From a virus, in the IMG/VR virus record IMGVR_UViG_3300036832_000607, positions 1-31,341 of that record: a stretch of 31,341 nt of DNA. One strand, 5' to 3'. This document shows positions 2,348 through 18,456 of the stretch, one piece after another; within the stretch, counting starts at the first letter, position 1; every line of letters starts with the position of its first letter. Position numbers and translations under genes: made by a program. The notes beneath the pieces were generated by a model. The model was not told where the DNA came from and searched no databases. It worked only from the letters and a program-made list of their open reading frames with translations.

Positions 2348-3025
2348 TCACCTTGCGGCCACCTTTCTTGGCCGAGCACGGGGTGAGACGACCTTGCTCG
2401 TCCAACCGGTGACCTCCAGCACCGGAGTCTTGATCCTGCCGAACTGCTTGTTCGAGTGGTTGTAGCCGCCGACGCCGAGCTTGATGGTCGGCCAGTCGTC
2501 GGGCCGCTGCCGCATCTCCTTGGCATACACCTTAGACAGCTCTCCGATGGCGCCCATGACGCCCCTCGATGACCCGACGAACGTGAAGAGATCATCATCG
2601 TCGCCAGTCCAGTTGACTGGCCTCAGTATGAGTTGATTGGATAACTGCCACGGGTCGCGTGGCTTGCCGTCGTCGCCGGTCTCCCACTCGCTCTGGTCGG
2701 TGTCGCTCAGCTCCGACCGCTTGAGCGGGACGTACTTGGTATCGCTGAGGTAACCGAACACCTGGTCGACGGGCCGGTTGTCCTCCCACTTGATCCAACC
2801 GACCTGGAGCGTGTCCATGACGGCGACGAGCTCGGTCCCGACCGGGATCTCCTCACTCTCCTGGCCGGCGAGGTAGTCGCCCTTGCTGAACTTCAGCAGG
2901 CGGCCGGTGATCGGCCTGGCTACGGCCTGGTTGCCGTACTGCTCGTACCGGTTCGCTACCTCGTCTAGGTTGGATAATTCTTGCTGGCTCTTCTTCTCTA
3001 CCACTTCCTGCTTTACCCTTGCCAT
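2348..3025 (-). CDS. Conserved phage replication-module protein of unknown function (225 aa)
   Basis: The protein starts MARVKQEVVEKK, is acidic in the middle, and ends in a basic, proline-containing tail. It shows no transmembrane segment, signal peptide or recognisable catalytic motif. The stretch GAIGELSKVYAKEMRQ followed by WPTIKLGVGGYNH looks like a folded conserved core. It sits 3 bp from the Cas4-like nuclease upstream and before the primase-helicase, so it is co-transcribed with replication genes. Such a place and acidic composition would fit an accessory or single-strand-binding protein, but no binding motif is seen and I do not assign that role. The start is supported by the neighbour's stop just upstream. 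Confidence 0.8.
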   Translation of the reverse strand: MARVKQEVVEKKSQQELSNLDEVANRYEQYGNQAVARPITGRLLKFSKGDYLAGQESEEIPVGTELVAVMDTLQVGWIKWEDNRPVDQVFGYLSDTKYVPLKRSELSDTDQSEWETGDDGKPRDPWQLSNQLILRPVNWTGDDDDLFTFVGSSRGVMGAIGELSKVYAKEMRQRPDDWPTIKLGVGGYNHSNKQFGRIKTPVLEVTGWTSKVVSPRARPRKVAAR

Positions 3026-3028
3026 TGT

Positions 3029-4063: not shown

Positions 4064-4404
4064 GATAAGTCCTCGTGATCAGTTACAATTTCCGTCACTA
4101 TCTCGACTTTTTCGTCGAGATCAGGTAAGTTAGGAAAATTTTTCTCAAAGAACTCTCTGACCTTCTTGGCAACTTCAGGAAAAACTCGGGTCCGCATAGG
4201 CATAGTCATCTGCTTCTCCTCGAGAGAATATGGTCCGTTGATGTCGCCTGCGGCGATTATGACTTCTCCAAATTCATCCTTCTGGATGTGGCCCGGCTCG
4301 AGGTACCACGCCGTCCCGCCGGGGATCTCGAGGTAGATCCTGGCGTCCTGATCAGGATATCTCTGAAGAATCTTGATGAGGCCGGATATAGTTAAGACTG
4401 ACAT
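4060..4404 (-). CDS. Hypothetical small acidic protein (114 aa)
   Basis: Starts MSVLTISGLIKILQRYPDQD and has a segment resembling an SH3- or Tudor-like beta fold (RIYLEIPGGTAWYLEPGH, then FGEVIIAAGDI), followed by a charged helix and an acidic tail. There are no membrane segments or metal-binding motifs. It overlaps the Cas4-like nuclease by 4 bp. Its reading frame is richer in A and T than its neighbours, as is the segment upstream of it. A purine-rich AGGAAA lies shortly before the ATG. Function unknown. Confidence 0.75.
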   Translation of the reverse strand: MSVLTISGLIKILQRYPDQDARIYLEIPGGTAWYLEPGHIQKDEFGEVIIAAGDINGPYSLEEKQMTMPMRTRVFPEVAKKVREFFEKNFPNLPDLDEKVEIVTEIVTDHEDLS

Positions 4405-4511
4405 GAGGGAGTTTCCTTTCTGTGTTTTTGTACATCACTACCCCCTTCACTATAAACTATTTTTTGCTTTATTCTCTCATGCTCGACCAACTCAGTTATG
4501 GTGTTGATCAT
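4392..4511 (-). CDS. Possible 39-residue small protein
   Basis: An ATG at 4511-4509 directly abuts the TAG of the upstream gene, and the frame stays open to a TAA at 4392, overlapping the next gene by 13 bp. The predicted product begins MINTITELVEHERIKQ and is charged and hydrophilic. The tail-to-head packing with both neighbours argues for a real gene. The lack of a clear ribosome-binding site, the A+T-rich composition and the short length argue against. Alternatively this stretch is only leader sequence for the downstream gene. Confidence 0.35.
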   Translation of the reverse strand: MINTITELVEHERIKQKIVYSEGGSDVQKHRKETPSCQS

Positions 4512-4925
4512 CTACTCAGAGGCGAGGGCGGCGCGGGCATGCAGATGACATCCGCAGAAATGAAAATCGTGACGTTCTCCAGCAATCTTCGTCAGCGCCT
4601 CCACCAGCTTCGCAATGTGCACCTCAGCGCGCTCGGCGCGGGCGATGCAGCCGGTCAAGTCTGTCTCGACATGCTCAAGGTCATGCTCCAACTCCACCAC
4701 GCGGGCGTGGAGGCGTCTGTTTTCCAAGACAATAACTCTCGTCTCTCTGGTGTCGCTCACGACTGACTTCTCGGCGGCCTGCGAGTCTGGCGCAATGGCG
4801 GATATGACATCCTCAAGTTCCTTGTGAAGCTCTCTTACACTCTCTCGGGTGCCACAGAACTCTCCCTCTACCGCCCCATAAGCTCTGCGGATATTCTCTA
4901 TAGCCTCTTCCCGTGTCATATTCAT
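4512..4925 (-). CDS. Predicted coiled-coil protein (137 aa)
   Basis: Long heptad-like helices dominate (for example NRRLHARVVELEHDLEHVE and RAERAEVHIAKLVEAL), with a short Cys/His-rich stretch near the C-terminus (HDFHFCGCHLHARAALASE). The ending ARAALA is shared in form with the upstream gene, which ends ADARAAIAS, so the two are probably a duplicated pair. This type of coiled-coil accessory protein is common in phages and its role is unknown. It overlaps the upstream gene by 4 bp. Confidence 0.75.
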   Translation of the reverse strand: MNMTREEAIENIRRAYGAVEGEFCGTRESVRELHKELEDVISAIAPDSQAAEKSVVSDTRETRVIVLENRRLHARVVELEHDLEHVETDLTGCIARAERAEVHIAKLVEALTKIAGERHDFHFCGCHLHARAALASE

Positions 4926-5401
4926 GGTGTCTCTCCCTGAACGGAGGCGATGGCGGCGCGTGCGTCGGCAATGATGTAGCTATCATAATATTCCGTATTA
5001 AGGCACACTTGCGTGACCTTTTCCAACGCTTCCACGAGCACCTTCCCCCGTGCCCGGAGGCGGGTGATCTCAGCGGTCAGCTCTGAACGGTCTTCGCTCA
5101 CGCATTCCAGAGCCTCATGAGCCTCTTGCCGGTAGTGCTCTAATTCATCGATGCGGTCGCTGGCGTCGTCGGCAACTACAGCACATGCCCGCCACCGTTC
5201 TCGGATGTCGTCGCACTCTGCCTCGGCGCGCTCGGCGCGGGCCTTCAATTCATCTGCCAACCCCCTGAAGGCGATGCGCTCAAATGCAGGGAGGTTCATG
5301 CCTAACAATCTTTCTTCCTCCAACTCCGCCACGCGGGCGCGGAGGAGGTCGATCTCGGTGGCCTGCTGGGAAATGGTGGAGAGCTCTTCTTCACCCGTCA
5401 T
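4922..5401 (-). CDS. Predicted coiled-coil protein (159 aa)
   Basis: The product is almost wholly helical and charged, with heptad repeats such as LLRARVAELEEERLL and ELKARAERAEAECDDIRERW, and ends ADARAAIASVQGETP. It resembles the next downstream gene in layout, suggesting tandem duplication. Its ATG overlaps the stop of the DNA polymerase gene by 4 bp (ATGA), so it is translated from the same message. No catalytic motif is seen and the function is unknown. Confidence 0.78.
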   Translation of the reverse strand: MTGEEELSTISQQATEIDLLRARVAELEEERLLGMNLPAFERIAFRGLADELKARAERAEAECDDIRERWRACAVVADDASDRIDELEHYRQEAHEALECVSEDRSELTAEITRLRARGKVLVEALEKVTQVCLNTEYYDSYIIADARAAIASVQGETP

Positions 5402-7317
5402 CGCCTCTTCCTCCTCGGCACCTTCTCTCCCAGCATGTCGATCGAGGCGGCGCGCTTGGCCGACGCCGTGTGCTCGACGTTGTCGCTCAGGTCGCCCCAG
5501 TTCGGCCCGACTCCCAGGTCGACCTTCAGGGGGAGCTTCAGCTCGACGCAGCCCTCAAGCGTGCGGTGCATGTGATCGAGCGCCTGACTCGCGACCCGAC
5601 CCCTGGGCACCGAGCCGTCGAGCTCGTCGTGGACGGTCAGGGACGGTACGCCGCCTAGCTCCTTGAGGACGCCCGACTCGTACACGTCGACCATCGCCTT
5701 CTTCAGGACGTCGGCGGCCGACCCCTGCACCCTGGCGTTCAGCGCCTTGTGACAGAACGCTCGCTTGCTGCCAGGGATAGCGTGGGGCGTGTAGATCGGC
5801 TCGACCTTGCCCGTCTCTCGGTTCCACTTGTCCTTGACCCACATCTCGAATCGTCGCTTGCGGTGCATCAGCGTCTTGACCTCACCCTGACGCGACGCCT
5901 GGTTCATCATGAGGTTCATGAGCGGCCTCATGAATGGCACCTTCGCGTGATACTGCCTGAGGAACTCCTCGCCTTTTTCTTTAGTAAGATTAAGCTGAGC
6001 GCATAGCTTGACGATCCCCTCGCCGTAGGCCAGGCCGAAGTTGATCGTCTTGGCGAACTGCCGAGAGATGCCAGCCATCTTTGAGACGACCTCGTGGTAG
6101 TCGGTGTCGGGGTCGTCGATGAACTGCTGGCACACCTTGGCCGCCCCCGGCAGGCCGGCGCACGTAGCGTCGTGTACCAGGAGCCTGAACTCGATCTGCG
6201 AGAAGTCGAACTTGTACCAGAGGCAGCCTGGCTCGGGGATGAAGAGGCCCCTGATCATCTTCCCGTCGTCCGTCCGCACGGGGATAAACTGCAGGTTTGG
6301 GCCCGTCGAGCTCAGCCTACCCGTCACAGTCCCGCCGTCGTCGCTCTTCAGGGGGTGGAACTGAGTGTAGACTCGGCCGTCGACGTGAGCGTTCAGGATC
6401 GTCCCCTCGAGGAACGTCCCGCACAGCTTGTCCAGCCGCCGAGCCTCCAGTATCAGCGCGGCGATCGGGTGGGTGCTCTCGGTTAGGAACAGCTTGGAGA
6501 AAGACGGCGCCTGCGTCTTCGGCGTCAGCTGGTACTCCAGGCCGAGCTCGTCGAAGGCCGCGCCGATCGACTTGGCCGCCCAGATCTGGACCGGCCTGCC
6601 GGCGACGCGGTCGATCTTCGCCTGGGTCACCGCGAGGGCGCGCCTGAATCTCTTCAGCGCCTCCTCGGCGCGGTCCAGGTCGACGCGGACGCCGCGCATC
6701 CGCATGTCGAGGAGCATCGGGAGCAGCCGCGACTCGAGGTCGAACAGGCTCCACAGGTTCTCTTTCTCCAGGAGTGGTCTCTGCTTCTCGAAGATCCGCA
6801 TCGGCAGGTCCACGTCGCCGATGGCGTAGGGAGCGACGACGTCCGGCGGCGCGCGCCATATGTTGTTCTTCGGGTTGCGCTTACCGAACTTGCTGATCAG
6901 CCAGGCGTCGAGCTCGTCGTCGACCTTACCCTCGAGGCCGTAGCTCTTGGCGATCGCCTCGAGGCTGTAGGTGAACCTGTTCTCGTTCAGCAGCGGCTCG
7001 GCCACCTGGATGTCATAGATCGGCCCTCGGACCTCGACGCCGGCCTTCGCCAGGAAGGCGAGGTCGTATAAGGCGTTAGCGAATATCTTCGGCTGGCTGC
7101 CGCTGAGCTGCCTCTTGAGCCACGAGAGGACCTTGGCCTTGTCCAGGTTGGGCCCGGTCTCGTGAGCGATCGGGTAGTAGTGGCGGAAACTCTCCGTCGC
7201 TACGGCGACGCCGCAGATGTAGCAGTCCGGCCTGTGGTACCCGGGGCCCAGCCTCCTCAGGTCGGGGTCTCGAGTTTCACAATCCAAGGCGATCGGCCCT
7301 CGCAGGGTGGGGAACAT
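5398..7317 (-). CDS. Family A DNA polymerase with 3'-5' exonuclease
   Basis: This is the replicative polymerase of the phage (639 aa). The exonuclease domain shows Asp12 and Glu14 (LDCETRD), Asn81/Asp85 (ANALYDLAF) and Tyr164/Asp168 (YAIGD). The polymerase domain shows motif A DFSQIEFR at 371-378, motif B RQFAKTINFGLAYG at 419-431 and motif C VHDE at 562-565. A Phe (427) occupies the motif B position that disfavours dideoxynucleotides in E. coli Pol I. The 5'-3' exonuclease domain of cellular Pol I is absent, as is usual for phage enzymes. The end of the upstream gene lies 1 bp before its ATG and the downstream gene overlaps it by 4 bp. Assignment is near certain. Confidence 0.97.
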   Translation of the reverse strand: MFPTLRGPIALDCETRDPDLRRLGPGYHRPDCYICGVAVATESFRHYYPIAHETGPNLDKAKVLSWLKRQLSGSQPKIFANALYDLAFLAKAGVEVRGPIYDIQVAEPLLNENRFTYSLEAIAKSYGLEGKVDDELDAWLISKFGKRNPKNNIWRAPPDVVAPYAIGDVDLPMRIFEKQRPLLEKENLWSLFDLESRLLPMLLDMRMRGVRVDLDRAEEALKRFRRALAVTQAKIDRVAGRPVQIWAAKSIGAAFDELGLEYQLTPKTQAPSFSKLFLTESTHPIAALILEARRLDKLCGTFLEGTILNAHVDGRVYTQFHPLKSDDGGTVTGRLSSTGPNLQFIPVRTDDGKMIRGLFIPEPGCLWYKFDFSQIEFRLLVHDATCAGLPGAAKVCQQFIDDPDTDYHEVVSKMAGISRQFAKTINFGLAYGEGIVKLCAQLNLTKEKGEEFLRQYHAKVPFMRPLMNLMMNQASRQGEVKTLMHRKRRFEMWVKDKWNRETGKVEPIYTPHAIPGSKRAFCHKALNARVQGSAADVLKKAMVDVYESGVLKELGGVPSLTVHDELDGSVPRGRVASQALDHMHRTLEGCVELKLPLKVDLGVGPNWGDLSDNVEHTASAKRAASIDMLGEKVPRRKRR

Positions 7318-7318
7318 C

Positions 7319-7801
7319 TTACTCTATGACTCGTCGGAATGGGATCAGATTTTCCTCGACATCTAGCTGCATCTCCCCTTCTCTTCGAGGAGCATTTGCT
7401 GTCTTGATGTGACCTTTTGCTGCAGCTTTATTCTGTTGGTACATCACATCTCGATTTGGATCTCCTGGATCGCTTGTGCAATATATCCCGTCAGGGGATA
7501 TGCGAATAATTGTGTAATAAGGAGTCGGAATTAACTCATTACGCTGTTCGTGATTTTTAAATTCTTCGTCTATAGCTCGACATATGTGGACGAGTTGTCC
7601 CCTAGTAGCTGAGATACCTTTTTTGACATTACCCCTCAACGGAGGATGAGATAGAGCATGAAGGGCTGCTCGAGCTCCAATTTCTGTCACAACTTTTTCT
7701 CTTCGCCAAGCTTTTTTTGCTGTCCTTGGAAAAGTTCCATTGACGAGCATCTCTTTCGTCACTCTGATCAGGAGTGGAAGCGCCTTTGATACTTTACTCA
7801 T
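7319..7801 (-). CDS. Hypothetical protein (160 aa)
   Basis: Starts MSKVSKALPLLIRVTKEML and contains a basic helical N-terminal half and a beta-rich middle (PYYTIIRISPDGIYCT). No motif is recognised. The DNA of this gene is visibly richer in A and T, with different codon choice, than the polymerase next to it, which hints at separate acquisition. It overlaps its upstream neighbour by 4 bp and precedes the polymerase by 1 bp, so it is expressed with the replication genes. Confidence 0.75.
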   Translation of the reverse strand: MSKVSKALPLLIRVTKEMLVNGTFPRTAKKAWRREKVVTEIGARAALHALSHPPLRGNVKKGISATRGQLVHICRAIDEEFKNHEQRNELIPTPYYTIIRISPDGIYCTSDPGDPNRDVMYQQNKAAAKGHIKTANAPRREGEMQLDVEENLIPFRRVIE

Positions 7802-8457
7802 CTCTGTAGTTCCTTCTTCAGATTGGAGATATCGCTCTTTAACAGATCTAGCTGAGCGATCGTGAAAGACTTCGCTTCGGGGGAGAATTTGTCGATGCAG
7901 TGCTCAGTATTTGCTATTTCCTGTCTATATTGTTTGGTGATTTCAAGAAATCGCTTGACTCGGCCATCGAATGACTGGTGCCACTTAGCTCGTGCTCGCG
8001 TCCTCTGATCTTTCTCCTCTTGCTTGTCAATTCTTTGAGGAGCAGCCCTAGCGACTCGCCGCGCCGTCGGGACAACTCTCTCCTCAAAGTCCTCGTCTGT
8101 AACTGCAGCTGCCTTCCTCGCCCTGTCGGCCAGCGCCTTGTCGATCCCAGCCCGTCGTAGGGTAGGTTTAGCACCGGGTTTTGGCGAAACCCGGTGCTCG
8201 GTCGTATCTCCTCCACCTTTCTCCATCCCTACCGTGTCGCGCTGCTGCTCCATCATCTGGCCGAGGCGGCGCTCCGCTCGTAGGCGAATCTCGGCGGCGT
8301 CCTCCAAGAGTTGATGATCCTTAGCCATCCGCGCGTAGGCAGCCATAGCCACCGCCTGGTCGCGGATGTCCTTGACCTCGTCCACGGTCTTGCACTCCGC
8401 GAGAGCTGACGCAGCCTTGTCGTACCGAACTAACTTTGGCGACTCCATATAGTTCAC
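7798..8457 (-). CDS. Conserved phage protein of unknown function, helical (219 aa)
   Basis: The N-terminal part (RYDKAASALAECKTVDEVKD, then AMAAYARMAKDHQLLEDA and RLRAERRLGQMM) matches a family I recall from many alphaproteobacterial phages and prophages. In those it lies close to replication or methyltransferase genes and has no proven role. The rest is basic and helical with a coiled-coil C-terminus. The GTG start at 8457 overlaps the upstream stop as GTGA; an ATG three codons later is the alternative. DNA binding is plausible from the charge but not shown. Confidence 0.8.
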   Translation of the reverse strand: MNYMESPKLVRYDKAASALAECKTVDEVKDIRDQAVAMAAYARMAKDHQLLEDAAEIRLRAERRLGQMMEQQRDTVGMEKGGGDTTEHRVSPKPGAKPTLRRAGIDKALADRARKAAAVTDEDFEERVVPTARRVARAAPQRIDKQEEKDQRTRARAKWHQSFDGRVKRFLEITKQYRQEIANTEHCIDKFSPEAKSFTIAQLDLLKSDISNLKKELQR

Positions 8458-8642
8458 CCGATCAGCTCTTCGAGAATAGTGCGCTTCTCTCGGACCTTAG
8501 CCCACGCCTCGTGGCACTTCTTCAACTTGTGTGGTTGCCACTCCTCCGTCATCTCCGCTTCTACATCTCTGCGGACAGCCGCCCGCAGAGCGCTCTCGAA
8601 TTCGTTCAACGCTTGAAATCTATCAACACCACTCATATCCAT
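8454..8642 (-). CDS. Hypothetical small helical protein (62 aa)
   Basis: Short charged helical protein (MDMSGVDRFQALNEFESAL ... KVREKRTILEELIG) with no known motif. It overlaps the upstream gene by 10 bp and the downstream gene by 4 bp in a compact operon, which is the main support. Function unknown. Confidence 0.65.
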   Translation of the reverse strand: MDMSGVDRFQALNEFESALRAAVRRDVEAEMTEEWQPHKLKKCHEAWAKVREKRTILEELIG

Positions 8643-8869
8643 GACTCCACTATGATGAGATCGTCTCGCTCATCTCTGGGCAAGCAGATGAGGCCGAAGG
8701 GGACGCTCTCCCTCGCCTCCTCGAGAGAGTCGAAGTCCCACATCTCCTCTATCCGCACACCCAGCTTCCCGACCGACTGCCGCTTCACTGTGTACGGCCC
8801 GGCGCGGTCGCTGCACCCCCGCATGATCGTGTAGATGTACAGCTCACTCCAGCCACTCACTGTAGTCAT
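8633..8869 (-). CDS. Hypothetical small protein (78 aa)
   Basis: A compact mixed alpha/beta protein with the central sequence RIEEMWDFDSLEEARE and C-terminus DDLIIVESWI. It overlaps the end of the helicase gene by 26 bp and the next gene by 10 bp, consistent with operon packing. No family is recognised. Confidence 0.68.
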   Translation of the reverse strand: MTTVSGWSELYIYTIMRGCSDRAGPYTVKRQSVGKLGVRIEEMWDFDSLEEARESVPFGLICLPRDERDDLIIVESWI

Positions 8870-10277
8870 CTCCAGTGATGATGTCCGACAGGTTCTGCTT
8901 GTCGCGGAGGGCTCGCAGGAACTTCCCCTCGACGGTCCCAGGGACGATCAGGTCAATGTACAATATTGGCCGCGTCTTGCCAACTCTTTTTACGCGGTCC
9001 TCGGACTGCTTCCTGTGCTCTAGGTCGGGCGTCGAGCTGTAGTAGATCACGGTGTCGGCGACGTCCCAGGTCCGGCCGAAGCGGCCGGCGGCTGGCGTGC
9101 CGACCATGAAGCGGCACCTGTCGTCAGTCTTGAACAGCTTCTCCTCGTCCTCCCTGGTCGCATTGTTGCCGCCCCAGAACCGCGCCACGGACCCCTCGCC
9201 GTACTCTTTCTCGAGAGCTGCGGTGACGCGGCGGATGTCGTCGTCGTAGCTGCACCAGACGACGACCTTGCCCGTGACCTCCTCGAGGGTCTCGAGAAGA
9301 GCGTCGACGCGGTTAGTCGGGATCTCGCGCCTGACACCCTCCTCGTCGACGACGTGGCCCATCAGGATCTGGTGCAGGCGGAGCATCTGGGTGACGACGG
9401 CCGTTGCGGTGACGTGGACGGCCTCAGAGAGCTGAGCGAACGAGTGCTTCTTCATGCTGGCGTAGGCCAGGGTCTGCTCCTTCGTCATCTGCACCTCTCG
9501 GCGGACGTACGTCGACTCGGGGAGCTCGGTGCAGTCCCTCAAGAGCACGCGGTAGCAGTACGGCTCTATCCTCTTGCTCAGATCCGCTAAATTCTTGTAG
9601 CCGACGACGATCCGGACGAACTTGCCAGGGATCGGTAGCTGCTTGGTGACGGCGTACCGCGCCTGGAACTGGGAGTATCTCCTGATCCCGATGATCGTCG
9701 GGTCGAGGAACGCGAACTGCATGAAGATGTCGAGCGGTGACCTCGGCGTCGGCAGGCCCGACAGGATGCGGCGGTGCGAAGCTCGCGGGCCGACGACCTC
9801 GACGAGGAACCTGGCGCGCTTCGCCCTTGGATTCTTCAGGAACGTGCTCTCGTCGGCGGCGACCATCACGCGCCTCTGGGCGAGAAATTCGATGACGAGC
9901 TCCCTCGCCCGGTCGACATTGCTCATCGCCTCGGAGTTGATGATCAAGATGCGGCGGCCGCGATAGCTCAGCAGCTGCTCGATCTCTGATCTCTTCGTGC
10001 TCCTGGCGGACCAGAGCAGCACCTTAGTACTCTTCAGGACGTCGGGCGGGACGTGCTCGTCGATCGCGGTCAGCCACGTGCGGTACGCGCCGCCTGGCGC
10101 GATGACTAGTAAGTCGTCGACCTCGTCGCGGCTCTGAGCGCTGAAGTAGTCGTGGAGCAGCAGCGGCGTCTTGCCGGTCCGCTGCTCCATCAGGAGCGCG
10201 AAGGCGGGTTGCCCTCGGATCTGAGCCGCCCCTGCCACCTGGTGGGACCAGAGCGGCTGGAGCGGCCGGTAAGTCAC
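8844..10277 (-). CDS. SNF2-type DEAD-box helicase/ATPase
   Basis: Read from the GTG at 10277, which overlaps the upstream stop as GTGA, the product is 477 aa. An ATG 63 bp further upstream keeps the frame open but lies inside the preceding gene. Helicase motifs: I EQRTGKT at 31-37, II DEST at 142-145, III SGLPTPRSP at 173-181, and in the second RecA domain VGTPAAGRFGRTWDVAD with motif VI QSEDRVKRVG at 424-433. This is the small SNF2-like helicase typical of phage replication operons, which may remodel forks or help recombination. No extra nuclease domain is seen. Family assignment is strong; the cellular role is inferred. Confidence 0.92.
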   Translation of the reverse strand: MTYRPLQPLWSHQVAGAAQIRGQPAFALLMEQRTGKTPLLLHDYFSAQSRDEVDDLLVIAPGGAYRTWLTAIDEHVPPDVLKSTKVLLWSARSTKRSEIEQLLSYRGRRILIINSEAMSNVDRARELVIEFLAQRRVMVAADESTFLKNPRAKRARFLVEVVGPRASHRRILSGLPTPRSPLDIFMQFAFLDPTIIGIRRYSQFQARYAVTKQLPIPGKFVRIVVGYKNLADLSKRIEPYCYRVLLRDCTELPESTYVRREVQMTKEQTLAYASMKKHSFAQLSEAVHVTATAVVTQMLRLHQILMGHVVDEEGVRREIPTNRVDALLETLEEVTGKVVVWCSYDDDIRRVTAALEKEYGEGSVARFWGGNNATREDEEKLFKTDDRCRFMVGTPAAGRFGRTWDVADTVIYYSSTPDLEHRKQSEDRVKRVGKTRPILYIDLIVPGTVEGKFLRALRDKQNLSDIITGDDYSEWLE

Positions 10278-10546
10278 TTCGAGGCGACGCCGTAGGCGAC
10301 GACCCTGGACTTGCCCGTCGGGGTCTTCGTCAGCTTCCACGGCTCCTTGTTGCTCTTAGCCTTGGTCTCCAGACCGTTGTAGATCATCCCGATCCTGGTC
10401 CGGCCACGCTCCGGGATGTCCGACCCGAAGAACTTCGGCAGGATGTCCGTCGTGGAGACGGGCTTCGACTTGATGATGCTGAACAGCTTCTTCTCAGACT
10501 CGTTGTAGCGCTTCGCAGCGTCCTTCGACAGTTCGATCTTTGCCAT
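10274..10546 (-). CDS. Hypothetical basic protein (90 aa)
   Basis: The best start is the ATG at 10546 (MAKIELSKDAAKRYNE), preceded by GGAG at suitable distance and lying 5 bp after the upstream stop. The longer frame to 10684 runs through the nuclease gene. The protein is lysine-rich, with a helical N-terminus and a winged-helix-like layout (LFSIIKSKPVSTTDIL, RIGMIYNGLETKA, WKLTKTPTGKSRVVAYG), so DNA binding is possible. It couples to the helicase gene by a 4-bp overlap. Confidence 0.72.
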   Translation of the reverse strand: MAKIELSKDAAKRYNESEKKLFSIIKSKPVSTTDILPKFFGSDIPERGRTRIGMIYNGLETKAKSNKEPWKLTKTPTGKSRVVAYGVASK

Positions 10547-11014: not shown

Positions 11015-11461
11015 ATGACCGCGAAGCCGATGCTCGTCGGGGAGAGCAACCCATACCCCGGGACCCAGGCGCTAGCTCCTGTGAACTCGTCGTGCACGGG
11101 CTACAGGATCTGGGCCATGATCAACTCCGTCGCGCCGCTGACGCACGAGGAGTATACGGCAGCGTTCGATCGCCTCAACCTGTGCGCTGGCGGCTGGTCG
11201 TCAGTCGAGGCCGTCGAGGTCGCTCGCGACATCAAGAGTTCCGCCGAGCCAGGATCTACCGTCGTCCTGCTGGGCCAGAGGGTGAGTCACCTGTTCGGCA
11301 TGAAGGGGACGAACCCGTCGATCCTCGGCGGCGTCCGGTACTTCGAGATTCCCCACCCGTCGGGGCTGAACCGGTACTACAATGATAAGGTGCTGCGCCG
11401 CGAGGTCGCGGTGTTCCTCGCTAGCTTGTACAGGGAGACGAAGATATGTCGAAGCAGATAG
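11015..11461 (+). CDS. Uracil-DNA-glycosylase-superfamily-like protein
   Basis: The 148-residue product has the frame of phage UDG-like proteins: VGESNPYPGTQALAP near residues 8-22, GYRIWAM near 29-35, VVLLGQRVSHLFG near 83-95, and IPHPSGLNRYYN near 112-123, where HPSGLN resembles the HPSPLS-type motif of UDGs. True UDGs remove uracil from DNA; whether this copy is catalytic is unclear, since the N-terminal water-activating motif is not standard. It is the first rightward gene after the divergent control region and heads a nucleotide/DNA modification block, overlapping the next gene by 16 bp. Confidence 0.6.
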   Translation: MTAKPMLVGESNPYPGTQALAPVNSSCTGYRIWAMINSVAPLTHEEYTAAFDRLNLCAGGWSSVEAVEVARDIKSSAEPGSTVVLLGQRVSHLFGMKGTNPSILGGVRYFEIPHPSGLNRYYNDKVLRREVAVFLASLYRETKICRSR

Positions 11462-11721
11462 TGAAGCTGAAGCCGGTGACTGAGGTCATCGCGGACCGTC
11501 AGATGGTCCACGGCGACTTCCGAGATGTGGCGAAGAAGAGCCAGGAGTTCCAGGCCATCCTTCGCGACGGTAAGAATTGGGACGACCTGCCTGACCATCA
11601 GAAGGAGGGGCTCCTCATGATCTGCCACAAGGTAGCTCGCATCCTCAGCGGCGACCCGAACCATCTCGACCACTGGCAAGATATCTGTGGTTACGCTGCT
11701 CGCGTCGCGTCGTACCTCTGA
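11446..11721 (+). CDS. DUF6378-like phage protein (91 aa)
   Basis: A small helical protein with the order ADRQMVHGDFRDVAKKSQ, then LPDHQKEGLLMICHKVARIL, then SGDPNHLDHWQDICGYA. I recall this layout, especially GDPNHxDHW...GYA, as a widespread phage family (DUF6378, name from memory). The clustered His and Asp residues suggest metal or nucleotide binding, unproven. It shares one base with the next gene's start and lies among nucleotide-metabolism genes. Confidence 0.75.
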   Translation: MSKQIVKLKPVTEVIADRQMVHGDFRDVAKKSQEFQAILRDGKNWDDLPDHQKEGLLMICHKVARILSGDPNHLDHWQDICGYAARVASYL

Positions 11722-13016
11722 TGTGCGGGGTCGTCGCTCAGCTTGGGAAGACCGCCGAGTTCGTCGAGGCCTTCGGCGCCATGACCTACCGCGGCACTCG
11801 AGGCGCCATATGCTCGTCGTCGAGGTGGGGGTACGTCGGGCACCACAGGCTGCCGATCGTCGGTCTGGATGCCAAGTACGACCAGCCCGTCGTCGACGGT
11901 AAGTGGACCCTGGCCTTCGTCGGCGAGATCCTGAACTTCCGCAAGTTCGGATCGGACGAGTCGGACCTGCCAGTCCTCGTCGAGGCCTGGAAGGTGTTCG
12001 AGAAGAAGAACTGCTTCCGAGACTTCGACGGTTTCTGGTCTCTCGTCGCCATCGACGAGGAGACCGGCGACCTCCACATGCTCACCGACTACCTGGGGCA
12101 GAAGCCGCTGTACTACAGGGGCGACGTCCGGGCGTGCGCGTCTGAGCCGGCGGCCGTGGCTCTCCTCGGGCCGACGACGCCAGACGAGATCTACTTCGGG
12201 GCGGTCGCCAAGTGGGGATACTGCCCGGACACGAAGCGGACGCCCTACAGGGAGATCAGGAAGACTGTGCCCGGCGAGCACGTCGTGATCCACCAGGACG
12301 GCCTCGTCCTCCGCGGGCTCGCTGACTGGCTGGAGCCAGCCCACGGCGACTTAGAAGAAGCCATCGAGGAAGCTGTCAAGCTCCGCGTCACGTCGTCGGA
12401 CGTGCCCGTGGCCATGCTGTACTCCGGCGGTCTCGACAGCTCGATCGTGAAGCTCCTGGCTGAGCAGCACGGGAAGATCAAGCACTACTTCGTCGAGGGC
12501 TGCAGCGAGGACAACGTGCCAGACGACTTCCACGGCGACGTGTGCGACGCGAGCGGCGTCAACCTATCTACCGCCGTCAGGGTCATGCAGGAGCCGATCG
12601 ACTTAGGGTCACTGGTCCCTCAGATCGCTATGTCCGACGCCGTCCTCGAGACCGTGTGCCTGACGGGGGACGGCGCGGACGAGCTCTTCGGTGGCTACGG
12701 CAGGGCTCAGCGGTACGACAGTCAGGCGTCGGACGTCTACCACGAGCTCGTCAACTGGCACCTGCCGCGGCTGGATCGCGTGATGATGAGGAACGCCATC
12801 GAGGTCAGGTCGCCGTTCCTGGCCAGGGGTGTGGCGGAGATAGCCTTCGGCCTGCCGTACGAGAAGCGGAGGGGCAAGAAGATCCTTCGCGACATCTACG
12901 GCGACCGCATCGATGCGAAGATCCCCAAGATTCCCCTGCGGACGGCGCATGTCGGGCACGAGAACACGCTCAAGATGATCGAGATCTTCAGGAGGAAAGC
13001 GTGGCCAAAGAAGTGA
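11721..13016 (+). CDS. Asparagine-synthetase-like glutamine amidotransferase
   Basis: Both halves of class II asparagine synthetase are present in a compact 431 residues (cellular enzymes are about 550). N-terminal glutaminase: Cys2 nucleophile after the initiator Met, YRGTRG at 23-28, GHHRLPI at 40-46, FVGEILN at 66-72, SEPAAV at 141-146. C-terminal synthetase: PP-loop SGGLDSS at 235-241, TGDGADELFGGY at 315-326, and NAIEVRSPFL at 358-367. Odd point: the usual NGEIYN Asn, which helps form the oxyanion hole, is Val68 here. The reaction in the family is ATP-dependent amide transfer from glutamine. In a phage the acceptor could be aspartate or a nucleotide or modified base. It overlaps the cytosine methyltransferase gene by 16 bp. 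Confidence 0.9.
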   Translation: MCGVVAQLGKTAEFVEAFGAMTYRGTRGAICSSSRWGYVGHHRLPIVGLDAKYDQPVVDGKWTLAFVGEILNFRKFGSDESDLPVLVEAWKVFEKKNCFRDFDGFWSLVAIDEETGDLHMLTDYLGQKPLYYRGDVRACASEPAAVALLGPTTPDEIYFGAVAKWGYCPDTKRTPYREIRKTVPGEHVVIHQDGLVLRGLADWLEPAHGDLEEAIEEAVKLRVTSSDVPVAMLYSGGLDSSIVKLLAEQHGKIKHYFVEGCSEDNVPDDFHGDVCDASGVNLSTAVRVMQEPIDLGSLVPQIAMSDAVLETVCLTGDGADELFGGYGRAQRYDSQASDVYHELVNWHLPRLDRVMMRNAIEVRSPFLARGVAEIAFGLPYEKRRGKKILRDIYGDRIDAKIPKIPLRTAHVGHENTLKMIEIFRRKAWPKK

Positions 13017-14365
13017 GGAAGCAGTTCACCGCGATCGGCCTGACGTGCGGCGTGGGGTCGATGCTCTGTGGTGCTCGAGCGGCTGGCTTCGATGTCCTCG
13101 GCAACGTCGAGTGGCGCAACTACTATCACTACAAGGACGAGCAGGGCCGCAACACGTTCACTGAGAACTTCCCTGGCGCCAAGTTCGTCGAGAATGTTGA
13201 CCACCTGTCGATGGACGAGATCGAGCGGATGATGCGAGCGGACATCGCTCTAGGCCATCCCGAGTGCGGCCGGTTCTCCATCCTGGATGGGACGAACAAG
13301 AAGGCCGCGGCCGCTGCAGGCAGGCCCGACCGCGGCCTCGACCCGGGCGACATTCCCCTCTTCGTGGAGCTGGTCGGCAGGATGCGGCCGAGGTTCTTCG
13401 TGATGGACGACCTGCCGAAGGCGTTCGCCGCGTTCTCGATGGAGAGGTACGCGGAGCGGCTCCCGGACTACGACCTATTCCCCGAGTGGGTCAGCAACTA
13501 CGGCTACGGCAACCCCCAGAAGCAGCGGAACCGGATGTTCATGATCGGCTCCATGAAGAGGGAGCGTTGGGCGTTCCGGCCGGGCGAGGTCGCCTCGTCC
13601 CTGACCGTGGCCGACGTGATCGGCGACTTATCTGCCCCCAGGAGAGGATCTAACATCCCGAACCACGAGCCGCACGACATGTCGAGCGACTGCTTCCGCG
13701 CGCTGAACCTCGGCGGCTACAGGAAGAAGAACACGTGGGGCGAGGTCCGAGATTACTTCAAGAGTGTCAAGAGCGGGAAGATCCTCCAGTACGAGGACGC
13801 TCGCGGTCAGATGATGACGAGGATCGGCTTCGTGAAGGGCCACTGGGACGGCCCGGCGCACGTCCTGACCGGCGGCAACGCCTGCATCCACGCGCTGCGG
13901 TGCGAGCCGTACACGATCCGCGAGCGCGCTCGCATCCAGGGGTTCCCTGACGACTTCATCTTCTACGGCACCATCCTGAACGAGAGAGGCGAGTGGGACC
14001 ACGACAAGAACAATCACCTGGTGCGGCAGACGGGGAAGGCGATGCCTGTTCAGTTCTGCGAGTATGCGGCCAGGCAGGTCATGGCGCACTGCCGCGGCGA
14101 GGAGTTCGCGTCGTCTGGCTACAGGCTCCTGCCGCCGAGTGAGCACATCGACGACGCGAAGCGGTGGTACTGCTCCAACGTCGGCTACGCTAACCAGAGG
14201 CGAGCGTGTGGCTCGTGCTGGCTGTTCGACCAGTGCGTGATCCGCACAGAGAAGTACGGCATCGGGAGAGTAGTGGACAAAAAAATTGCACCGCCGACGC
14301 GAAGAGTAGTGGACAGGTCGCCGAAAAAAATTGTACAAGTCGTTCCAAAGGACATAGAGTTCTGA
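13001..14365 (+). CDS. Divergent C5-cytosine DNA methyltransferase with C-terminal Cys cluster
   Basis: Starts at GTG 13001 behind a strong GGAGG; 454 aa. The frame is open further upstream, but that part lies inside the preceding gene. Motif I is FTAIGLTCGVGSMLCGARAAGF; the catalytic loop is GHPECGRFS (Cys89); the ENV motif is replaced by MDDLPK (135-140); QKQRNR (173-178) and GKAMPV (345-350) match motifs VIII and X; RERARIQGFPDDF (307-319) also fits the family. So it should bind AdoMet and attack cytosine C5, but the Pro before the Cys is Glu and the ENV Glu is Asp. A tail with Cys391, 403, 406 and 412 may hold a metal or Fe-S cluster. The end carries an imperfect duplication (RVVDKKIAP, RVVDRSPKK). 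Confidence 0.85.
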   Translation: MAKEVRKQFTAIGLTCGVGSMLCGARAAGFDVLGNVEWRNYYHYKDEQGRNTFTENFPGAKFVENVDHLSMDEIERMMRADIALGHPECGRFSILDGTNKKAAAAAGRPDRGLDPGDIPLFVELVGRMRPRFFVMDDLPKAFAAFSMERYAERLPDYDLFPEWVSNYGYGNPQKQRNRMFMIGSMKRERWAFRPGEVASSLTVADVIGDLSAPRRGSNIPNHEPHDMSSDCFRALNLGGYRKKNTWGEVRDYFKSVKSGKILQYEDARGQMMTRIGFVKGHWDGPAHVLTGGNACIHALRCEPYTIRERARIQGFPDDFIFYGTILNERGEWDHDKNNHLVRQTGKAMPVQFCEYAARQVMAHCRGEEFASSGYRLLPPSEHIDDAKRWYCSNVGYANQRRACGSCWLFDQCVIRTEKYGIGRVVDKKIAPPTRRVVDRSPKKIVQVVPKDIEF

Positions 14366-14564: not shown

Positions 14565-15057
14565 GGAAACTGTCATTGACCGCTTCTTGTCGTTTTGTGA
14601 ACGGGATTTGAGTAGTGGATGCTTAATCTGGAAAGGTAAAATCTTTGAGCCAAGGGGATACGGACGAACATTCAGACAAATAACGGGTGACCGCTGGGCA
14701 CATCGTGTATCGTTCCTATTATTTAGAGGTATTATTCCTAAGGGAAAACGAGTATTGCACTCGTGTGATACGCCTGCGTGTGTCGAACCTAGTCATTTGT
14801 TTTTAGGGACACAGAAGGATAACATAGCTGATTGCGTCTCTAAGGGAAGAAATGGTTATCGATCTTTCCATGGAGAAGATCACTGGAAAGCTAGAATTTC
14901 TAAGAGTCAGGCGGAAGAGATCAAATCATCGACGCTCAGTCGAAAGCAACTCGCTAAGAAGTTTGGTGTAACGCAACTCTATATTAAGCACGTCCGGAGC
15001 AGCCGGGCTTGGAAGAAGACAGAGGGATTAACAAATGTCCATGGGCGACGTCGTTAA
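14554..15057 (+). CDS. HNH homing endonuclease with C-terminal helix-turn-helix
   Basis: The HNH core reads CLIWKG ... GYGRTF ... AHRVSFLLFRG ... VLHSCDTPACVEPSHLFLGTQKDNIADC, with His50, His69, Cys71, Cys76, His81 and Asn90 placed as in the HNH_3 family of phage free-standing endonucleases. Residues 115-150 (ISKSQAEEIKSSTLSRKQLA, KKFGVTQLYIKHV) form a helix-turn-helix for site recognition. The gene is much richer in A and T than its neighbours and uses different codons, as expected of a mobile element. It begins at a GTG behind GGAGGAG, overlaps the upstream gene by 11 bp and the next by 23 bp, so it sits without breaking translation of either. Confidence 0.9.
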   Translation: MLREETVIDRFLSFCERDLSSGCLIWKGKIFEPRGYGRTFRQITGDRWAHRVSFLLFRGIIPKGKRVLHSCDTPACVEPSHLFLGTQKDNIADCVSKGRNGYRSFHGEDHWKARISKSQAEEIKSSTLSRKQLAKKFGVTQLYIKHVRSSRAWKKTEGLTNVHGRRR

Positions 15058-15901
15058 CATAATCAAGAAGTGTCCGACTGACTACCACTGTAGATGCGAA
15101 TACTGTAAGAGATTTATCGGAGAACTTCGTCCTGCTGATAAATCTTATTACTCGCGTCTCGAGCGTCGAAAGTATTATGATCCCTGCGAAAGTGGATCAG
15201 GAGAGGGGAAATCTCCTCATATCGCTAAGACGCCGCTGCACATCGCACGGTGGGCCGTCCAGCGGTACACCGAGCCGGGCGACTGGGTTCTCGACCCGAC
15301 GGCGGGCGCTGGCACCACGGCCGTCGAGGCGATGACCCAGGGGCGGTGCTTCATCGGGATGGAGCTCCAGTACGAGAGCATCATCGTCGCCAACATCAAG
15401 AAGCACGTGGAGCTGTCACCGAAGAAGCCGATCCTGCGGATAGGCGACGCTCGGCAGATCGGTGACCTCTTGAAGAAGAGTAAGATCAGACCTACGCTCG
15501 TCGTCAACAACCCGCCGTACTCGGGCGACGAGAGCATGCCGTCGCTCAACAAGAGGAACGGCGTAGAGACGGTCTACAAGTACGACAGGAGCCTGCCGAA
15601 CATCGCCTTCCTGAGGGAGAACGGAGCGTACTGGGAGACGATTAGATCTATCTACGGCACCTGCGTCGACTCGCTGGCGCCCGGTGGCCACTTCGTCACC
15701 GGCATCAAGGACCAGGGGCGCGGCGGGAAGTCAGACGATTTACATAAGGGCTACTGCGATGTACTGAGGGCACTGGGCTTGACCCCCGTCGGGACAGCGA
15801 TCCTGCTGCACTACCCGAAGACTCTGCATTTGAACACTTGCTTTCAGCGCCACGGCTACCACCCGCCCTACTACCAGACCATATCAGTCTTCAAGAAGTG
15901 A
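15035..15901 (+). CDS. NPPY-type DNA methyltransferase (N6-adenine or N4-cytosine)
   Basis: The AdoMet motif VLDPTAGAGTT lies at residues 85-95 and the catalytic NNPPY at 158-162, AdoMet motif first. The family transfers methyl to an exocyclic amino group of adenine or cytosine. A second pattern, GEGKSPHIAKTPLHIARWAV, is typical just before motif I. The N-terminus has a compact Cys/His cluster (Cys13, His18, Cys19-area, Cys21, Cys24) that may bind zinc. The first 200 bp are A+T-rich like the HNH gene before it, then composition switches abruptly to the GC-rich phage norm near 15235. No cognate restriction nuclease is seen, so it is probably an orphan protective or regulatory methylase. Confidence 0.87.
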   Translation: MSMGDVVNIIKKCPTDYHCRCEYCKRFIGELRPADKSYYSRLERRKYYDPCESGSGEGKSPHIAKTPLHIARWAVQRYTEPGDWVLDPTAGAGTTAVEAMTQGRCFIGMELQYESIIVANIKKHVELSPKKPILRIGDARQIGDLLKKSKIRPTLVVNNPPYSGDESMPSLNKRNGVETVYKYDRSLPNIAFLRENGAYWETIRSIYGTCVDSLAPGGHFVTGIKDQGRGGKSDDLHKGYCDVLRALGLTPVGTAILLHYPKTLHLNTCFQRHGYHPPYYQTISVFKK

Positions 15902-15998: not shown

Positions 15999-16322
15999 AT
16001 GATGGTCGAATTCGTGATGTCTATAGAAGAGGCTCGTCGGCGGGTCGAGGCGAATGACGCGAACCGCACGAGGAGCCCCAACCAGTCGCATGGCCACCAC
16101 AGGAAGATCGAGAAGATCTTGCTTGAACTTATGCGTCCTGGCAAGGTATATCCTATCAAGGAGCTCAAAACCTTCGTTATGGCGGTGCTCGGTAAGAGTG
16201 ACGGGTCAGTTGGTCCCGCAACTTCGTACATGGTCGATGTTAGCAAGACGGTGTTCAGGCCTAGCCGTGGTTGGTATCAGCTCACGGATAAGGGAAAGAA
16301 AAAAGATGTACACATCGACTGA
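15999..16322 (+). CDS. Hypothetical protein, possible winged helix (107 aa)
   Basis: Starts at ATG 15999 after a strong AAGGAG. After a basic N-terminus (MSIEEARRRVEANDANRT), the part HRKIEKILLELMRPGKVYPIKEL ... WYQLTDKGK has the helix-helix-helix-wing order of winged-helix proteins, so DNA binding is possible. It overlaps the thymidylate-synthase-like gene by 17 bp, and may be a partner or regulator of it. No family is recognised. Confidence 0.68.
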   Translation: MMVEFVMSIEEARRRVEANDANRTRSPNQSHGHHRKIEKILLELMRPGKVYPIKELKTFVMAVLGKSDGSVGPATSYMVDVSKTVFRPSRGWYQLTDKGKKKDVHID

Positions 16323-17502
16323 GAAGACGTTCCGAGACACGTTCGTCGCTCTGAAGATCGCGATGCTGAGTCGAGGCGTCGCCGTCAGGACGGAGCGGTG
16401 GCAGGGGGTCCAGGCCAACCTGGACACGCGCGAGCTGCGGAACGTCAACTTCGAGATCGACCTCGGGGGGATAGAGGACCTCAACCACTGGCGCCAGGAC
16501 ATCCGCCCCAACCTGTCCTGGGCTGATGGACACTTCCTCGAGCGCGTCGGCGGGGTATGTCTTAATCCTGGAGAGGAGTGGAAACGGTGGCCGTGGGGAC
16601 AGAGTGCAAATAAGTTCCGCGGAACAGACGAACTTGGTCCCCGTTTCCCTCCTCAGGACTGGGCATATCTTGCTGGTATGATCGATGGGGAGGGCACAAT
16701 CTATTTTCAAAGGCACAAGTTACCATCCTTCCAGGGAGTTATTCGAATCTACCAGAAGAACCGATTTGTTCTTGACTATTTGCATAGTCTCTTTCGAGTT
16801 GGAGATGTCCATGAGGTCGGTGGTCAGCAACAAGTACTGAACGGGACAGAGTATAATGATGCGAGTCATCAGTGGGCCATCGGAGCTATTCTAGAGATTC
16901 GATGGATTTTATCTGGAGTTCTTCCATATCTTAAAGTAAAACAAGATGTGGCGAAATCTACTCTGATGGCGATTAATTCTTGTCTTCAATCGAAGAAGGA
17001 AACTGGGGTACCGATGAAGAAGGTGTGGGGCCAAGATTGGCCGGCCCGTTTTAATCACACCTACGCCGATCGTTTGTGGCCTAAGAGACTTGAGGGTGGT
17101 AATGAGTTTAGAGGTCAACACTGGACCTACGGGGACTTGAATAATCTTGTGGACCTCTTAGCGAAGGAACCATACACCCGTCAGGCGTGGATACCACTCT
17201 TCCATCCAGAAGACACTGGCCTCGGTGATGGCGGCAGGAAGATGTGTTCGCTGGGGTACCAGGTCATCGTCCGCGACGGCCGAGCGCACATCTGGTACCC
17301 GCTGCGATCCGTCGACCTGGTCAGGCACTTCTCTGACGACTGCTACCTGGCGGTCAGGATGCTGCTGTGGATCATCGACCGGTGCCGGGAGAGGAGTGAG
17401 GTCTGGTGCAGCATCACTCCTGGCAGTTATGCAATGCACTGCACGTCGCTGCACGTGTTCGAGACAGACCTGAAGGAGATAACTGATGACGATGTTCGAT
17501 GA
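16306..17502 (+). CDS. Thymidylate-synthase-like enzyme with in-frame LAGLIDADG insertion
   Basis: From ATG 16306 the product is 398 aa; the upstream extension overlaps another gene and is not used. The parent protein matches phage thymidylate-synthase-like enzymes: RPNLSWADGHFLERVGG at 67-83, PWGQSANKFR at 96-105, RFNHTYADRLWPKR at 248-261, YGDL near 275-278, TRQAWIPLFHPEDTG at 291-305, catalytic Cys314 in KMCSLGYQ, and RSVDLVRHFSDD at 334-345. Family members methylate or hydroxymethylate dUMP or dCMP. Residues about 114-247 are a single-motif LAGLIDADG domain with no Hint (intein) region. Base composition is A+T-rich across the insert and its flanks. With the dCMP deaminase and MazG-like genes downstream it forms a pyrimidine nucleotide module. 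Activity with the insert present is uncertain. Confidence 0.87.
   Translation: MYTSTEKTFRDTFVALKIAMLSRGVAVRTERWQGVQANLDTRELRNVNFEIDLGGIEDLNHWRQDIRPNLSWADGHFLERVGGVCLNPGEEWKRWPWGQSANKFRGTDELGPRFPPQDWAYLAGMIDGEGTIYFQRHKLPSFQGVIRIYQKNRFVLDYLHSLFRVGDVHEVGGQQQVLNGTEYNDASHQWAIGAILEIRWILSGVLPYLKVKQDVAKSTLMAINSCLQSKKETGVPMKKVWGQDWPARFNHTYADRLWPKRLEGGNEFRGQHWTYGDLNNLVDLLAKEPYTRQAWIPLFHPEDTGLGDGGRKMCSLGYQVIVRDGRAHIWYPLRSVDLVRHFSDDCYLAVRMLLWIIDRCRERSEVWCSITPGSYAMHCTSLHVFETDLKEITDDDVR
16640..17051 (+). mobile_element. In-frame LAGLIDADG homing-endonuclease insertion flanked by 7-bp repeats
   Basis: The 7-bp sequence CCCGTTT occurs at 16640-16646 and 17045-17051, exactly 405 bp (135 codons) apart. Removing one copy and the insert rejoins GPR-F to NHTYADRLWPK in frame. 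The insert encodes WAYLAGMIDGEGTIYF near residues 119-134 and LSGVLPYLKVKQDVAKSTL near 202-220, the two conserved blocks of single-motif LAGLIDADG enzymes, which act as homodimers. There is no Cys/Ser start, no block B TxxH and no terminal His-Asn, so it is not an intein; and too little non-coding sequence remains for a group I intron. Confidence 0.78.
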
Positions 17503-17881
17503 CGTCGGAGCGTTCCACAAGAAGTTCGGCCTCGACGTCTACCACGAAGACACTGACGCGCACTGGCTCAGCGACGAGCTGATGGAGTTCAGGCTCAAGT
17601 TCCTCGAGGAGGAGATGCGAGAGCTCCGGGAGGCCGTCGTGGCCAGGGACATGGTGAAGGTGGCCGACGCGCTCGGCGACATCGTCTGGGTCGCCCTCGG
17701 CCACGGTCACCTCATGAGCATACCGATGGACGGGGTGTGGGCCGAGATCAGGCGGGCGAACATGGCGAAGGTCCGGTCGGTCGGGGACGACGACCCTAGA
17801 TCCACTCGCGGGTCTCGCTTCGACGTCGTCAAGCCGCCCGGCTGGGTGCCGCCGGACATCGGGTGGATCTTGAAGAGATAG
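17486..17881 (+). CDS. MazG-like nucleotide pyrophosphohydrolase
   Basis: The 131-residue helical protein has the EExxEL and DxxGD order of the all-alpha NTP pyrophosphatases: FLEEEMRELREA at 39-50 and KVADALGDIVWVALG at 58-72, with acidic residues for metal binding. These enzymes hydrolyse nucleoside triphosphates to monophosphates, and phages use them to clear unwanted dNTPs or disturb alarmone signalling. The ATG overlaps the previous gene by 17 bp, linking it to the thymidylate-synthase-like enzyme. Assignment to the superfamily is good; the substrate is inferred. Confidence 0.85.
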   Translation: MTMFDDVGAFHKKFGLDVYHEDTDAHWLSDELMEFRLKFLEEEMRELREAVVARDMVKVADALGDIVWVALGHGHLMSIPMDGVWAEIRRANMAKVRSVGDDDPRSTRGSRFDVVKPPGWVPPDIGWILKR

Positions 17882-18006
17882 CTCAGGGGGGATTCAGTGA
17901 CGGCTAGTGAGGGAGTCGGACAGCGGAAGGCGGGATGCAGGACCCCTGGGCTACGGAGTTGTTTTCCTGTCACAATGCCGCCGACCCTCACACCACGGAG
18001 ACGCGA

Positions 18007-18456
18007 ATGACTGACTGGTTTCAGCGCTACATGAATCTCGCTCGGCACATCTCTACGTGGAGCAAAGATCCGAGCACTAAGGTTGGGGCGGTCATCGTCG
18101 GGCGGAACCGCCGGCACATCGCTGTCGGCTACAACGGGCCCCCGCCGGGCATCGAGGACACGCCTGGGCGGCTGAACGACCGAGAGCTCAAGTACCGGTA
18201 CACCCAGCACGCTGAGCGGTGCGCCCTCGACAACGCCTGGTTCGACACCGTGGGCAGCACCCTGATCGTGACGATGCACCCCTGCTGCGAGTGCGCCAAG
18301 TCGATCGTCGCTAAGGGGATCGTGACGGTGGTCTCTCCCGGCATCCCGGACAATCCCCGGTGGCACCAGGAGGCCACGTGGGGTGCCGGGATCTTGCATG
18401 AAGCGGGTGTCAATTTGGTATATATGGAGGGTGAGACTGATTACTCACTAACTTGA
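18007..18456 (+). CDS. dCMP deaminase
   Basis: Starts at ATG 18007, with GGAG 7 nt upstream; an in-frame ATG at 17935 has no support and would add residues outside the family. The 149-residue protein has the zinc-binding and catalytic HAE (His68, Glu70 in QHAERCALDNA) and PCCEC (92-96), plus the N-terminal SKDPSTKVGAVIV typical of deoxycytidylate deaminases. It turns dCMP into dUMP, feeding the thymidylate-synthase-like enzyme upstream. The 125 bp before it hold no gene or clear promoter. Confidence 0.93.
   Translation: MTDWFQRYMNLARHISTWSKDPSTKVGAVIVGRNRRHIAVGYNGPPPGIEDTPGRLNDRELKYRYTQHAERCALDNAWFDTVGSTLIVTMHPCCECAKSIVAKGIVTVVSPGIPDNPRWHQEATWGAGILHEAGVNLVYMEGETDYSLT

Follow-up and report, generated by a model that had tools for sequence, protein, structure and literature searches.

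An AsnB-like protein lacking the glutaminase oxyanion asparagine in a viral contig, with a proposed role in cytosine hypermodification

The stretch of DNA analysed here, called the window, is a 31,341-base IMG/VR virus contig with 59.8% G+C. It carries an open reading frame for an AsnB-like protein within a run of plus-strand genes. These features are listed below; numbers of loci with relatives refer to the best 80 of 357 family loci.

11015-11461, plus strand: UDG-superfamily-like protein (phrog_12275), relatives in 11/80 loci
11446-11721, plus strand: DUF6378 protein of 91 aa that shares one base with the AsnB-like start (TGATG), relatives in 21/80 loci
11721..13016, plus strand: AsnB-like protein, 431 aa, ATG start (Pfam, family alignments, AF2 model, structural matches)
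11919..11921, plus strand: codon of Val67, which aligns with the oxyanion residue Asn74 of E. coli AsnB
13013..14365, plus strand: C5-cytosine methyltransferase (C5-MTase) homologue with HPEC in motif IV, the Lys of GKAMP and a four-Cys tail
15035..15901, plus strand: N4/N6 amino-MTase homologue (NPPY); in two related loci it forms one protein with the C5-MTase (L040:7377-9650, 757 aa; L047:8034-10289, 751 aa)
16054..17502, plus strand: TS homologue of the dCMP hydroxymethylase type (Asp at ThyA position 177), with an in-frame insert
17486..17881, plus strand: PRA-PH / MazG-like nucleotide pyrophosphohydrolase (family-library matches)
17935..18456, plus strand: dCMP deaminase (family-library matches)

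The initial annotation had placed the AsnB-like gene between a UDG-like protein and a cytosine methyltransferase. The C5-MTase does adjoin it downstream, where a GTGA overlap joins the AsnB-like stop and the C5-MTase start, but the immediate upstream neighbor is the DUF6378 open reading frame, and the UDG-like gene, whose motifs resemble those of the UDG superfamily, lies one gene further. The C5-MTase probably starts at the GTG at 13013; in most analyses it was translated from 13016. A replication block on the opposite strand (2348-10340, minus) diverges from the modification genes and contains a Cas4-like exonuclease (3029-4063), a family A DNA polymerase (5398-7317) and an SNF2-type helicase (8844-10340, minus). 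Rfam and tRNA searches of the window gave no match, and no close DNA relatives of the window were found in phages.

The AsnB-like protein begins with MCG and consists of an Ntn-type N-terminal domain (approximately positions 1-200, with Cys2 and Val67) and a PP-loop synthetase domain (approximately 210-430). Pfam matches are Asn_synthase (2.4e-25), GATase_6 (6.9e-13) and GATase_7 (1.7e-11). The score for TIGR01536 (asparagine synthase, glutamine-hydrolysing), 146.1 bits, is below the curated cut-off of 267.1. Residue numbers of E. coli AsnB are used for the sites we take to be equivalent (Asn74, Arg49, Asp98). The N-terminal domain retains Cys2, Arg24-Gly25, Arg43 (AsnB Arg49), Gly68, Glu69 and Asp82 (Asp98), and the synthetase domain retains SGGxDS, GDGADE, Glu361, Arg363, Lys386 and Lys403. 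An apparent loss of the C-terminal catalytic Lys in a few-sequence alignment is an artefact, as the family alignment places Lys403 there. The window reads FVGEILN where asparagine synthetases show NGEIYN, and Val67 aligns with the Asn of both E. coli AsnB and human ASNS. The initial annotation is thus confirmed in stating that all synthetase motifs and Cys2 are present and that the Asn is replaced by Val. In addition, YRGTR replaces the cellular RGPD, and the stretch from the VGE motif to Asp82 is approximately 12 residues shorter than in cellular relatives. An AF2 model from an 11-row alignment (mean pLDDT 84.8) matches over both domains the hydroxyamidotransferase TsnB9 (7ylz, Z 36.4), E. 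coli AsnB (1ct9, 35.9), human ASNS (32.5) and beta-lactam synthetase (approximately 30).

A search of viral contigs with the window AsnB-like protein alone gave no match. The window C5-MTase led to 10 related viral loci. With a profile built from the 11 AsnB-like proteins, 357 relatives were matched in viral contigs, and the analysis covers the best 80 of them. The resulting 90 family rows represent 86 contigs (four contigs are counted twice, and close relatives are included), and the Asn74 position is Val in 76, Ser in 10, Thr in three, Ala in one and Asn in none. At 70% identity, the 45 representatives, one of which is perhaps a repeat contig, show Val 41, Ser 2, Thr 1 and Ala 1. The nucleophile Cys and Gly75 are kept in 90/90 rows and Asp98 in 89/90. 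Arg49, which binds glutamine, is kept in 36 rows and lost in 54, and RGPD is replaced, Pro32 not being among the residues listed for any group of family rows. Among 79 cellular homologues, Asn and Arg49 are present in 79/79 and Pro32 in 78, with one gap; this cellular sample is not random, as patterns of the phage family itself were used to draw it and it comprises the best 80 of a larger set. The replacement of Asn in the phage family (0/90 with Asn, vs 79/79 in cellular rows) is far beyond chance. When the 45 representatives were placed in a tree together with 20 cellular rows and three other phage AsnB-like rows, the family formed one side of a branch with support 100/99, and the window protein fell in a sub-clade of 12.

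An isolated mutation is ruled out by the absence of Asn from all 90 rows, and a decayed glutaminase by the fixed Cys and Gly75 and the nearly fixed Asp98. Because every row keeps the Cys, the site seems to have been re-tuned under selection and not to be decaying. The proposal that glutamine use is weakened is plausible from the loss of Asn74 and, in 54 rows, of Arg49. With Cys2 and Asp98 retained, however, the N-terminal domain may equally well be active on another donor as be bypassed by ammonia.

Among 80 loci returned from 84,980 genomes, only one (L114) belongs to the phage family. It is a contig in a Myxococcaceae MAG (RPRB01000006.1, 75,335 bases) with a sequence identical to the IMG/VR viral contig L039. 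A tblastn search of 50,697 phage records with two family members found no isolate of the family; the matches were Streptomyces phage TurkishDelight and other AsnB homologues, many bacterial-looking. In the records fetched, which cover part of these matches, the motif is NGE wherever it was found, the cut L006 and L011 giving none. Four unannotated 'phage' records (L003, L004, L005, L006) come from fecal or wastewater samples, and the genes around AsnB in them look bacterial.

A changed donor has a precedent in TsnB9, which lacks the Asn (SGE) and uses glutamyl hydroxamate (PMC13418202). One alternative is that the phage protein is a TsnB9-like transferase whose acceptor is a small-molecule acid with no link to DNA, loaded with hydroxylamine or another N-nucleophile from a glutamyl derivative. 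In the structural comparison TsnB9 ranks first, tied with AsnB, and it shares with the phage family the AsnB fold and a non-Asn oxyanion residue, Ser there and mostly Val in the phages. However, TsnB9 retains RGPD and belongs to a natural-product gene cluster, and the tight spacing of the phage gene to the TS homologue favors a nucleotide role. We consider this reading highly improbable.

The phage family shares with asparagine synthetase B / ASNS the two-domain architecture, fold, nucleophile Cys, PP-loop and catalytic Lys. It differs in the replaced Asn74 and RGPD, the frequent loss of Arg49, other acceptor-side residues, a length of 431 aa and other genomic company. An asparagine synthetase that uses ammonia, i.e. 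a metabolic gene feeding phage protein synthesis with asparagine, would agree with the predicted AsnB fold over both domains, with the intact PP-loop, GDGADE and Lys403, and with an altered glutaminase site, which suits ammonia. But use of ammonia alone leaves Cys2 in 90/90 rows unexplained, the gene is linked to cytosine-nucleotide genes and not to amino-acid genes, and the acceptor side is changed. Nine positions of the synthetase domain (D294, L295, G296, Q301, R328, Y332, E342, H347, P349) are invariant in 57 family representatives, and 74 cellular representatives mostly differ there; the cellular Phe406 is Leu in the phage family. These positions probably lie at the acceptor pocket, and the acceptor side looks rebuilt. 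An asparagine-forming role is accordingly rather improbable.

The constant neighbors of the AsnB-like gene in the family are a TS homologue and a dCMP deaminase. Asp is found at ThyA position 177 in 68 of 69 TS homologues, the window included, with one gap, and Thr or Ser at position 147 in 69/69. In the same alignment, which is sure around Cys146 to Asn177 and less so in the N-terminal third, the controls are T4 gp42 with Asp179 and Thr149 and E. coli ThyA with Asn177 and His147. According to the MetaGPA paper (PMC8670742), positions 177 and 147 are the top two TS positions separating modified-cytosine contigs from the rest, and TS, dCMP deaminase and PRA-PH pyrophosphohydrolase form a module around a 5hmC carbamoyltransferase. 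The window encodes the same three partners. It resembles the 5hmC module of MetaGPA (PMC8670742) and T4 gp42 in a TS with Asp177 and without His147, a dCMP deaminase and a PRA-PH pyrophosphohydrolase; the difference is that in the phage family an AsnB-like protein stands beside the TS homologue.

The window TS homologue also carries an in-frame insert of approximately 115 aa (approximately 16642-16990) that is missing from six aligned relatives. The insert contains the LAGLIDADG-like stretch AYLAGMIDGEG; PHROG labels this part an HNH endonuclease, and an Rfam search found no intron. With the insert, the window TS homologue may be non-functional as it stands.

Searches (tblastn) over the best 80 of 357 loci found a relative of the window TS homologue in 69, dCMP deaminase in 63, MazG in 41, the N4/N6 MTase in 34, DUF6378 in 21, the C5-MTase in 20, the UDG-like protein in 11 and CmoA in none. 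When open reading frames were clustered, the TS was upstream of the AsnB-like gene in 53 loci and downstream of it in 15, including the window; the median distance between the two genes is two bases. Two gene orders recur most often, N4/N6MT-TS-AsnB-dCMP deaminase and MazG-TS-AsnB-dCMP deaminase (eight each). Of 11 loci without a clustered TS, six have the AsnB-like gene starting less than 170 bases from the contig start. L022 measures 5 kb, L035 and L037 stop shortly downstream of the AsnB-like gene, L032 has a TS by tblastn, and L038 is the same contig as L020, which has a TS. The C5-MTase, assigned by hand, is present in 11/12 representatives of the window sub-clade (the exception, L037, is truncated), 12/13 of the second (not L041) and 1/20 of the third.

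A ThyX-like gene, named from sequence, is found in 17 loci, and 12 of these also carry the TS homologue, as would fit if the latter is dispensable for dTMP. In contrast to its frequency in the family loci, the window TS is matched at all by 103 of 50,697 phage records. The record MW202777 shows the core module, with a TS homologue ('pyrimidine hmase'), an FAD-dependent TS, a dCMP deaminase and an NTP-PPase-like gene, and an AsnB-like gene is not annotated nearby. An AsnB-like enzyme added onto this module would lead one to expect such cases.

The C5-MTase homologue of the window has Lys341 (GKAMP) at the position of HhaI Asn304 and CmoX Arg350, and HPEC rather than SPPC in motif IV. At this motif X position Lys is found in 30/30 rows of the homologues (26 contigs), while 31 cellular C5-MTases (30 loci) show Asn 27, Met 2, Gln 1 and Asp 1, and SpCmoX and TurkishDelight gp123 show Arg. 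A four-Cys tail (KxWYC...C..C...C) is present by pattern at the C-terminus of 27/30 rows and possibly constitutes a metal site. The AsnB-like gene is directly upstream of the C5-MTase in 10/10 loci found with the window MTase.

The closest known system to the phage family is CmoA-CmoX-CmoY. According to Yang et al. (2025, PMC12783734), CmoA makes Cx-SAM, CmoX, with Arg350 for HhaI Asn304, makes 5-carboxymethylcytosine, and CmoY, an asparagine-synthetase homologue, adds glycine; the system is that of Synechococcus phage S-B43. The same paper likens CmoX Arg350 to the engineered Cx-SAM-using M.MpeI N374K, states that host CmoA can suffice in E. coli, and describes a second ligase cluster carrying a glutaminase domain, which the authors could not test. 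The likeness consists of an AsnB homologue beside a C5-MTase homologue, a charged residue in place of the motif X Asn, and a presumed amide on cytosine. The window differs in that CmoA was not found and in having HPEC, Lys and VGE where the known system has SPPC, Arg350 and NGE; the phage family, moreover, is a separate clade accompanied by a dCMP-type TS and dCMP deaminase.

Streptomyces phage TurkishDelight (L002:12127-17155, gp121-gp125) carries ParB-like genes, an Arg-type C5-MTase, a ligase with a glutaminase domain and NGELFN (gp124), and gp125, annotated 'methyltransferase', which is CmoA-like (TIGR00740 2.6e-25, under the cut-off). From its gene content this looks like a full CmoA-CmoX-CmoY set. 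In Achromobacter phage Motura (L010:10001-11281) an AsnB-like gene that retains NGE is part of a 7-deazaguanine cluster, flanked by QueC and a tRNA-guanine transglycosylase; this is a third kind of phage base-modification neighborhood for AsnB homologues. The 7-deazaguanine route suggested by Motura was rejected for the window, as no such gene was found among the window proteins searched against family libraries.

A divergent CmoX-CmoY pair would have the window C5-MTase use host-made Cx-SAM to form 5-carboxymethylcytosine, which the AsnB-like protein amidates to 5-carbamoylmethylcytosine. The invariant Lys, the M.MpeI N374K parallel and the sufficiency of host CmoA in E. coli (the latter two from PMC12783734), and the constant adjacency of the two genes, overlapping in the window, agree with this, and because of the Lys, carboxymethyl chemistry is still possible for the window sub-clades. 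Against it, CmoA was not found in the window (0/1) or in whole records of the 10 nearest relatives (0/10), which may be fragments and for which a host CmoA could serve, while it was found in 5/5 controls. Motif IV is HPEC or a close variant and not SPPC, and the TurkishDelight ligase falls outside the AsnB-like clade (branch 100/99). Most of the 80 family loci lack the C5-MTase. Since CmoA is missing and the wider family follows the TS and dCMP deaminase rather than the C5-MTase, plain membership in this system is set aside as an unlikely alternative.

The best-supported reading is that the AsnB-like protein would be an ATP-dependent C-N bond former (an amide or amine synthetase) in cytosine hypermodification. 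We put the probability that it is a hypermodifying enzyme of a cytosine-modification module, and not an asparagine synthetase, at about 0.6. This reading is supported by the replacement of Asn74 with the Cys kept in 90/90 rows, the single clade, the linkage to TS and deaminase, the Asp177 and Thr/Ser147 of the TS homologue, the changed acceptor-side residues and the TIGR01536 score below cut-off. A precedent for AsnB-type cytosine chemistry is CmoY, an AsnB homologue that modifies phage cytosine (PMC12783734). The gene linkage suggests that the reaction takes place on the base rather than on a free metabolite. The initial annotation proposed a nucleotide or base acid acceptor rather than aspartate. 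In outline this is supported by the dCMP-type TS and dCMP deaminase neighbors and the family's own invariant synthetase-domain residues; the acid itself matches CmoX/CmoY chemistry (PMC12783734), but CmoA was not found in the contig or the 10 nearest relatives. A literature search with partial coverage found no paper combining dCMP hydroxymethylase, asparagine synthetase and phage.

In the proposed hypermodification pathway, the dCMP-type TS homologue would make 5-hydroxymethyl-dCMP (or 5-methyl-dCMP), and dCMP deaminase and pyrophosphohydrolase would lower unmodified dCMP and dCTP. The PP-loop domain would spend ATP, with an AMP intermediate and release of PPi, to activate an acid or oxygen group that is already part of the modified base or is later attached to it, and the activated group would be joined to nitrogen to give an amide- or amine-bearing cytosine. 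Since the Cys domain is kept and the glutamine-reading residues are changed, the probable nitrogen source is ammonia, or else some amide or amine that is not plain glutamine. In the window sub-clades, the Lys-type C5-MTase homologue, whose translation is coupled to that of the AsnB-like gene, may act on the same base in DNA, as may the N4/N6 MTase.

Several points count against this pathway. Every catalytic synthetase residue, Asp317 of GDGADE among them, is also found in asparagine synthetases. Phages commonly carry TS, dCMP deaminase and pyrophosphohydrolase as nucleotide genes, so that their linkage to the AsnB-like gene could be general. 5hmC has no carboxylate that could serve as the activated group.

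A more specific version, which we regard as speculative and unlikely, is that the AsnB-like enzyme acts directly on 5-hydroxymethylcytosine, as nucleotide or in DNA. The PP-loop would adenylate the hydroxymethyl oxygen or a loaded group, and a non-glutamine nitrogen, its donor bound in the rebuilt Val/Ser-Gly-Glu Cys site, would displace AMP to give an amino- or amidomethyl cytosine in one step. In the window sub-clades the Lys-type C5-MTase would then be a further enzyme on the base and not a methylase. If true, N-bearing DNA bases would be reached by a new route, and Ntn amidotransferases would gain a new donor specificity.

The family itself provides a natural fixed case for the role of the glutaminase oxyanion Asn, as a whole clade has the Cys without Asn74 and often without Arg49. 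If the cytosine hypermodification reading is true, AsnB-type DNA modification would not be confined to the carboxymethylcytosine system but would also occur in phages that have a dCMP-type TS homologue. Viral 'asparagine synthetases' of a widespread class, with the 357 relatives matched in viral contigs, would then be DNA-base chemistry misread as amino-acid metabolism.
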